Positions 29,841-30,962 of a stretch of 31,834 nt of DNA are shown here, piece after piece (positions within the stretch are counted from its first letter, which is position 1; every line of letters starts with the position of its first letter). Source of the DNA: a virus; the IMG/VR virus record IMGVR_UViG_3300009684_000109, positions 1 to 31,834 of that record. One strand, given 5' to 3'. Both the position numbers and the translations under genes were made by a program. A model generated the notes under the pieces. That model was not told the origin of the DNA. It did not search any database and worked only from the letters and a program-made list of their open reading frames with translations.

Positions 29841-30962
29841 ATGAAAAAGACACAGACCATGCTTTACAAAACCCTGCACCGCGCCCTGTCACTGAGGCGT
29901 CCACACAACACAGCGGGTAGCCTGACCTTCACGGCGTGGCTTATCGACCGACTACCTGAACGCTTGCGTACCAACGCATGGCAAGACGTAGCGGGTAACG
30001 TGCACATCGACAACCGCACACACAGTGACCACAAGACCCTGTTCGTAGCACACGTCGATACCGTGCACCGCAAGACAGGCGCTAACAAGATACGCAAGAC
30101 TACTTCGGTCTGGTATGCAGACGGCGCAGCTTTGGGTGCGGATGATGGAGTGGGGTGTGCGCTGCTTATGCACATGCTGCACGCTAGTGTACCGGGGTAC
30201 TACGTGTTCACCCAAGGCGAAGAGTGTGGTGGCATCGGTGCAAAGCACTTAGCCGAGCAGTACCCGCTGCTGCTTGCCGAGTTCAGTCGTGCCATTGCGT
30301 TCGACAGGCGTGGCACCGACAGCGTTATCAGTCACCAAGGGTATGGGCGCTGCTGCTCCGATGCATTCGCTGACGCGCTGTCCTCCGCGCTTAATGCTAC
30401 CGACGACGACCTTATGTACTCACCCGATGACACTGGCGTGTACACCGATACAGCCGAGTTCACCGACATCATCCCCGAGTGCACCAACGTGTCGTGTGGC
30501 TACCTGCACGAGCACAGCGACAAGGAGCAGCTTGACATGATCCACTTCGACCGACTGGCCAAGGCCGTGCTGCTGATCGACTGGGATGCGCTGGTCACTG
30601 ACCGTGACCCTACCGTGCCTGACTACAAGGACTACGGCGTGGGCAAGGACTGGTGGAAAACGTACGACAAGAAGGATGCCGAGAGAGACCTGTGGGACAC
30701 GAGCAAGTGGGGCACGCATGTAGACCTGACCGAGGACGAGACGCTGTACGAGTGCTTGCTCGATGCGCAGCAGGGGTTCCTGACGGGTGTCATTGGGATG
30801 ATGGCCGAGTCGGTGTACCCCGACGACCCGAAGGCTGCGATCAAGTTCATCAACCGTAGCAAGATAACCGATGAGGTCATCACTATGGCGATGGGTATGG
30901 TGGGGCGCAACGATGTGGATAGCATCCTGTGCACGATGTTTGATATGGCTTATGCCGAATGA
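29841..30962 (+). CDS. M20/M28/M42-like zinc metallopeptidase
   Basis: 373 aa from ATG 29841; a GTG at 29814 overlapping the upstream stop (GTGA) is the alternative start. The metal-ligand order of co-catalytic zinc exopeptidases is visible: FVAHVDT (His71, Asp73), GADDGVG (Asp101), QGEECGG (Glu127, Glu128), AFDRRG (Asp155) and LHEHSDKE (His223 or His225). This would hydrolyse peptides or aminoacyl amides in the host cytoplasm. There is no signal peptide. Residues after ~250 form an extra, highly charged domain of about 120 aa with no recognised match. Such peptidases are uncommon in phages and their substrate here is unknown. It lies between the 562-aa gene and a 72-aa gene. Confidence 0.8.
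   Translation: MKKTQTMLYKTLHRALSLRRPHNTAGSLTFTAWLIDRLPERLRTNAWQDVAGNVHIDNRTHSDHKTLFVAHVDTVHRKTGANKIRKTTSVWYADGAALGADDGVGCALLMHMLHASVPGYYVFTQGEECGGIGAKHLAEQYPLLLAEFSRAIAFDRRGTDSVISHQGYGRCCSDAFADALSSALNATDDDLMYSPDDTGVYTDTAEFTDIIPECTNVSCGYLHEHSDKEQLDMIHFDRLAKAVLLIDWDALVTDRDPTVPDYKDYGVGKDWWKTYDKKDAERDLWDTSKWGTHVDLTEDETLYECLLDAQQGFLTGVIGMMAESVYPDDPKAAIKFINRSKITDEVITMAMGMVGRNDVDSILCTMFDMAYAE

Follow-up and report, generated by a model that had tools for sequence, protein, structure and literature searches.

The protein encoded at 29841..30962 in the window, that is, the whole stretch of 31,834 nucleotides of IMG/VR record IMGVR_UViG_3300009684_000109 analyzed here, is a predicted co-catalytic zinc peptidase of clan MH (hereafter PEP; 373 aa), and the adjoining upstream gene (28129..29817) encodes a second conserved protein (hereafter UP; 562 aa) that accompanies PEP with near constancy in unrelated phages, in bacterial genomes and on plasmids. 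This constant upstream partner, which is absent from the initial annotation of the locus, is the most informative feature to emerge from the present analysis. The reading that we favor, if only tentatively, is that PEP is an active two-zinc hydrolase of the exopeptidase type and constitutes one half of a two-protein establishment module with UP that is directed against the host. Coordinates of UP, PEP, their parts and the palindrome between them all refer to the plus strand.

The source contig is a tailed-phage fragment according to IMG/VR, and the terminase, portal and major head genes are found in the window on the other strand, in accord with the earlier description of the peptidase as phage-encoded. 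Among phage records, the contig has a single nucleotide match, which covers a short part of the head gene of phage DSL-LC04, a phage with no detectable PEP in its genome. The PEP reading frame extends from an ATG at 29841 to a stop codon at 30960-30962, the location being the one originally reported. An in-frame GTG at 29814 is an alternative start that would add 9 residues; we prefer the ATG because the starts of PEP relatives align with it and because the GTG lies within a palindrome overlapping the UP stop codon. This palindrome, CGTGTCACTGTGACACA, is located at 29805..29821, across the UP stop codon and 5' of PEP, and eight copies of it (TGTGTCACNGTGACACA, with three or fewer mismatches) are present in the window between 25635 and 29821, compared to 0.25 expected. 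The copies at 27660 and 28056 are contained within two near-identical repeats of about 55 bases located 5' of genes. Close relatives also have a stem at this position 5' of PEP, its two arms being in the opposite sense. Possibly, the palindrome is a regulatory element, either an operator or an RNA hairpin. The small gene 3' of PEP (30973-31188 in the window) belongs to phrog_8676 (E 2.3e-21), a family of unknown function.

All five ligand motifs of the M20/M28/M42 type that had been recognized by inspection are present in order, and the match is well above chance with both Pfam M28 and phrog_4191. Specifically, Peptidase_M28 (PF04389) scores 28.5 bits with PEP against a cut-off of 21.3 (E 1.5e-6) and matches 46 of 46 close homologues, and the phrog_4191 'peptidase' profile aligns with residues 9-306 at E 2.6e-70; the scores of Peptidase_M20 (PF01546; 20.6 vs 24.6 bits) and Peptidase_M42 (PF05343; 14.6 vs 23.2 bits) are below the curated cut-offs. 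The predicted zinc ligands are His71 (AHVDT; 30051..30053), the bridging Asp101 (GADDG; 30141..30143), Glu128, which follows the predicted general base Glu127 (GEE; 30219..30224), Asp155 (FDRRG; 30303..30305) and His225 (HEHSD; 30513..30515). In the alignment of 87 homologues, H71, D73, D101, E127, E128, D155, R156 and H225 are retained in every sequence, so that the metal ligands are invariant across the family members compared.

In the AlphaFold2 model of PEP, the core is predicted with confidence (mean pLDDT 85), and the catalytic domain, residues 1-264 (29841..30632), is devoid of a lid domain. The predicted fold is that of clan MH and not another one: the model matches the catalytic domains of PepT and PepD with Z of about 24 over residues 3-252 and, in particular, 3rza with Z 24.0 and an rmsd of 2.7 over 239 residues. 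PepT-type tripeptidases are also the best sequence relatives of PEP in the PDB. Despite these highest structural scores and best sequence matches, PEP differs from the M20 enzymes PepT and PepD (3rza, 3gb0, 2qyv) in lacking their lid/dimerization insertion, as indicated by the spacing of 70 residues between D155 and H225 and by the extent of the core model (3-254). With Peptidase_M28, PEP shares the single, lid-less catalytic domain, the H-D-EE-D-H order of ligands and a score above the gathering cut-off. Characterized M28 members are mostly secreted, whereas PEP, which has no signal peptide, is extended at its C-terminus by a helical domain and comes with a partner gene. The family profiles, the invariant ligands and the predicted fold all agree with the proposed co-catalytic zinc peptidase. 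In clan MH, the third ligand is typically Asp in aminopeptidases and Glu in carboxypeptidases and deacylases; PEP, with Asp at this position, is more likely to have the activity of an aminopeptidase.

The C-terminal part of PEP was initially described as an extra charged domain of about 120 residues. An acidic domain is indeed present, but it is confined to residues 298-373 (30732..30959), which are modeled as a compact helical unit with pLDDT of about 95 and contain 14 D/E vs 5 K/R, whereas residues 265-297 (30633..30731) form a disordered linker that is modeled mostly with pLDDT below 60 and is hypervariable in alignments. The domain is carried by 46 of 46 members of the close PEP clade, and significant matches of an HMM for it are confined to that clade, with none outside PEP among the sampled loci; no Pfam family covers it. 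The C-terminal ends of the Autographiviridae members are shorter or different, and the paralogues encoded by huge phages have long, highly varied extensions. A module conferring specificity for a substrate or a partner would fit this clade-specific distribution.

A tblastn search for phage homologues, as suggested along with the initial annotation, yielded 364 phage records with a PEP relative, mainly from Klebsiella, Pectobacterium and Vibrio phages and including KP34 p11. Many of these records already label the relative as 'peptidase'; the gene family is not new but is a known and uncharacterized phage family. The shared gene set of Kp34likevirus includes both p11 and the preceding gene, p10, of KP34 (PMC4411677), and in Phimunavirus, no conserved early ORF other than that of the peptidase has a function assigned to it (PMC6115819). 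The putative peptidase gp11 of KP34 and its relatives in Drulisvirus, Phimunavirus and Maculvirus likewise belong to phrog_4191, share the ligands of PEP and show the same gene order as the window, with a large gene of unknown function upstream of the peptidase. However, they come from a different phage lineage, are only about 30-40% identical to PEP and contain the C-terminal helical domain in a different or longer version. The searchable literature contains no functional or experimental study of the family that we could find, and the initial remark that no phage role is established holds for these papers as well.

The association of PEP with UP is close to universal in the viral sample. Wherever a sampled viral locus extends far enough upstream of PEP, UP is the adjoining gene (72 of 72 loci); the eight viral loci without UP start no more than about 550 bases from the PEP match. 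Conversely, when UP is the query, PEP is adjacent in 79 of 80 loci, and in the single exception, the contig ends 23 bases past the match. UP homologues precede PEP in phages KPV811, Ep4, PP16, KF2, Pasto and BDU-MI-1; the UP profile recognizes the KPV811 member with E 3.6e-26 and, more weakly, those of Ep4 and PP16 (E 1e-5 and 2e-4), the latter two belonging to phrog_13313, which is also matched by the KPV811 protein. The pair is found in KP34-like, Pectobacterium, Vibrio, Rhizobium and Bradyrhizobium phages, in bacterial genomes and on plasmids of Limnohabitans, Sphingopyxis and Methylobacterium. Nine of the 14 bacterial contigs with PEP contain an adjoining UP; one bacterial contig (L184) carries two successive pairs resulting from tandem duplication, and in another one (L180), the order of the two genes is reversed. 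The distance matrices of UP and PEP are correlated across 22 diverse pairs (r 0.85, with none of 2000 permutations as high), in part owing to shared descent. More weight can be placed on the duplication as a unit, the reversal of gene order and the distribution over unrelated elements.

The genomic settings of the pair support a role in establishment. The initial assignment of PEP to an early region was based on position only, and in the KP34-type relatives, the peptidase gene precedes the primase gene, as reported previously (PMC6115819) and as computed here. On plasmid pMC4, the pair lies between a ParB-like gene and genes for toprim, DUF2493, HEPN and Abi-family proteins. Side by side with these contexts, we note that on this conjugative Sphingopyxis plasmid (L210 532-10619), UP and PEP cluster with DUF2958, toprim and DUF2493 genes, and that on Methylobacterium plasmid pVL1_2, UP, PEP, a second PEP-like protein and a glutamate-tRNA ligase-like protein are encoded within about 10 kb (L211 936-2423, 3170-6458 and 9296-10228).

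In the model of UP, a helical N-terminal region is followed by an alpha/beta core (residues 161-365; 28609..29223) and an acidic beta-hairpin tail (residues 366-562; 29224..29814) that includes 57 D/E, 13 K/R and 13 Cys residues. Within the tail, the conserved cysteines C391-x2-C394 ... C415-x2-C418 (29299..29382) delineate a probable zinc ribbon, with C391, C394 and C418 invariant across 59 close homologues. The core, delimited in 22 diverse pairs, contains a set of residues that are invariant in all 22 proteins, namely, S244-C245-M246 (28858..28866), P260, Y264, R284, Y296, G320, P346, Y347 and D349, and the invariant SCM/R/Y/PYxD residues point to a separate active or binding site in UP. 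The UP of the window matches neither phrog_6980 nor phrog_13313, two families without a known function, the matches among its close homologues being 8/59 and 11/59, respectively; the clear viral matches of UP are the corresponding genes in other phages. The UP profile retrieved nothing from the PDB sequences and only marginal, scattered matches from Pfam. Comparison of the UP model to the PDB with Foldseek returned mostly GNAT/Fem proteins, topped by MprF, FemX and aminoacyl-tRNA-dependent peptide synthases, but these matches, which involve UP residues 222-325, are weak: the best E is 0.08, and the best Z, 6.5 for some 80 residues, is under the reliable level of the tool. Furthermore, UP differs from Fem, MprF and GNAT proteins in the invariant SCM motif, in the zinc-binding, acidic tail and in matching no transferase-family HMM, and no acetyl-CoA loop motif was recognized in it by eye. 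Therefore, we regard the GNAT/Fem likeness of the modeled fold as a lead and not as an assignment. In BFVD, UP also matched an 'Amidoligase enzyme' and a LIM-type protein, but the matching regions of UP could not be located, and these hits were set aside.

PEP also occurs without UP. Three phages of about 640 kb (LR756502, LR745206 and LR756504) encode 4, 5 and 8 PEP paralogues at scattered loci (L193-L208), with no detectable UP. Those paralogues that are readable at the ligand positions retain the metal-ligand motifs, L207 being read only in part. The neighborhoods of these paralogues share no common gene, and neighbors match only between orthologous loci. Similarly, Thermus phage P23-45 has PEP and no detectable UP, as do a few bacterial contigs. 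Given these cases of PEP alone, PEP can apparently act without UP, and the multiplicity of copies in the huge phages fits several distinct substrates.

Taken together, the constant pairing in phages, prophages and plasmids suggests that UP and PEP act jointly on a peptide soon after entry. Under the mechanism that we tentatively prefer, UP, with its conserved core and zinc-binding, acidic tail, would, in the infected cell, recruit or modify a peptide or the end of a protein, on which PEP would hydrolyze an amide bond; acting soon after entry, the module would neutralize or reprogram a host factor. The predicted fold, the conserved ligands, the pairing across unrelated elements and the co-divergence of UP and PEP are observed; the catalytic activity, the physical or pathway coupling, the timing and the counter-host or counter-defense purpose are inferred. 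Against this mechanism are the elements with PEP but no detectable UP and the lack of matches of PEP or UP to the PADLOC defense profiles. A bolder version, in which UP would be a GNAT/Fem-like enzyme that attaches a group to a protein or peptide by (amino)acyl or peptidyl transfer, with PEP removing or trimming that group, seems unlikely to us. It draws on the Foldseek results, on the GluRS-like gene located about 2.8 kb past UP-PEP on one plasmid and on the precedent of phiKMV-like phages, in which the GNAT protein Rac drives the takeover of the host RNA polymerase (PMC7552054). Yet this version depends on the weak fold match of UP, with no support from the transferase HMMs, and the GluRS-like neighbor is a single case. 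We do not claim a relationship between Rac and UP because the gene for Rac adjoins that for the phage RNA polymerase and because Rac contains a recognizable acetyl-CoA site (PMC7552054). In its fullest form, with PEP as the cognate amide hydrolase in a new system of peptide or protein-end modification that disarms a host function on entry and is common to lytic phages, prophages and conjugative plasmids, this idea is more doubtful still.

Explanations that dispense with a joint substrate appear even less probable. That PEP is a general cytosolic exopeptidase recycling amino acids of host proteins for the phage, with UP an unrelated neighbor, would be compatible with the single-domain exopeptidase fold, the absence of a signal peptide and the multiple copies in huge phages; we consider it improbable given the near-constant pairing in unrelated phages and plasmids and the adjacency that survives both duplication and reversal, and the occurrence on plasmids is at odds with a nutritional role in lytic growth. 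The acidity of the UP tail, the label 'putative DNA mimic protein' on the UP homologue in one Klebsiella phage record and the location of the pair after an ArdA-like gene in Rhizobium phage Pasto could be taken to indicate that UP is a DNA mimic or another antirestriction protein that PEP merely assists, for example, by removing an inhibitor. However, the invariant residues reside in the non-acidic core and suggest a specific site, and the annotation of the Klebsiella record is unsupported in the present analysis, making this an explanation to which we assign a quite low probability. The least probable of the alternatives, in our estimate, is that PEP processes a phage protein or peptide, such as a virion or lysis component. 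Maturation proteases are common in phages and often encoded by them, but PEP is located away from the structural genes, is found upstream of the replication genes in KP34-type phages and is present on plasmids as well.

What is new here about a conserved early 'peptidase' gene, which is carried, among others, by common Klebsiella phages and has no role assigned to it in the searchable papers, is the proposed two-gene module together with its occurrence on plasmids, the multiplication of PEP in huge phages and the C-terminal domain specific to one clade. With UP as a near-constant partner, PEP becomes a testable two-gene unit. That elements as different as lytic phages, prophages and plasmids share this unit points to some barrier in the host that all incoming DNA meets, and the multiplication of PEP in phages of about 640 kb suggests that, as a phage tactic, targeted peptide hydrolysis has been underestimated.
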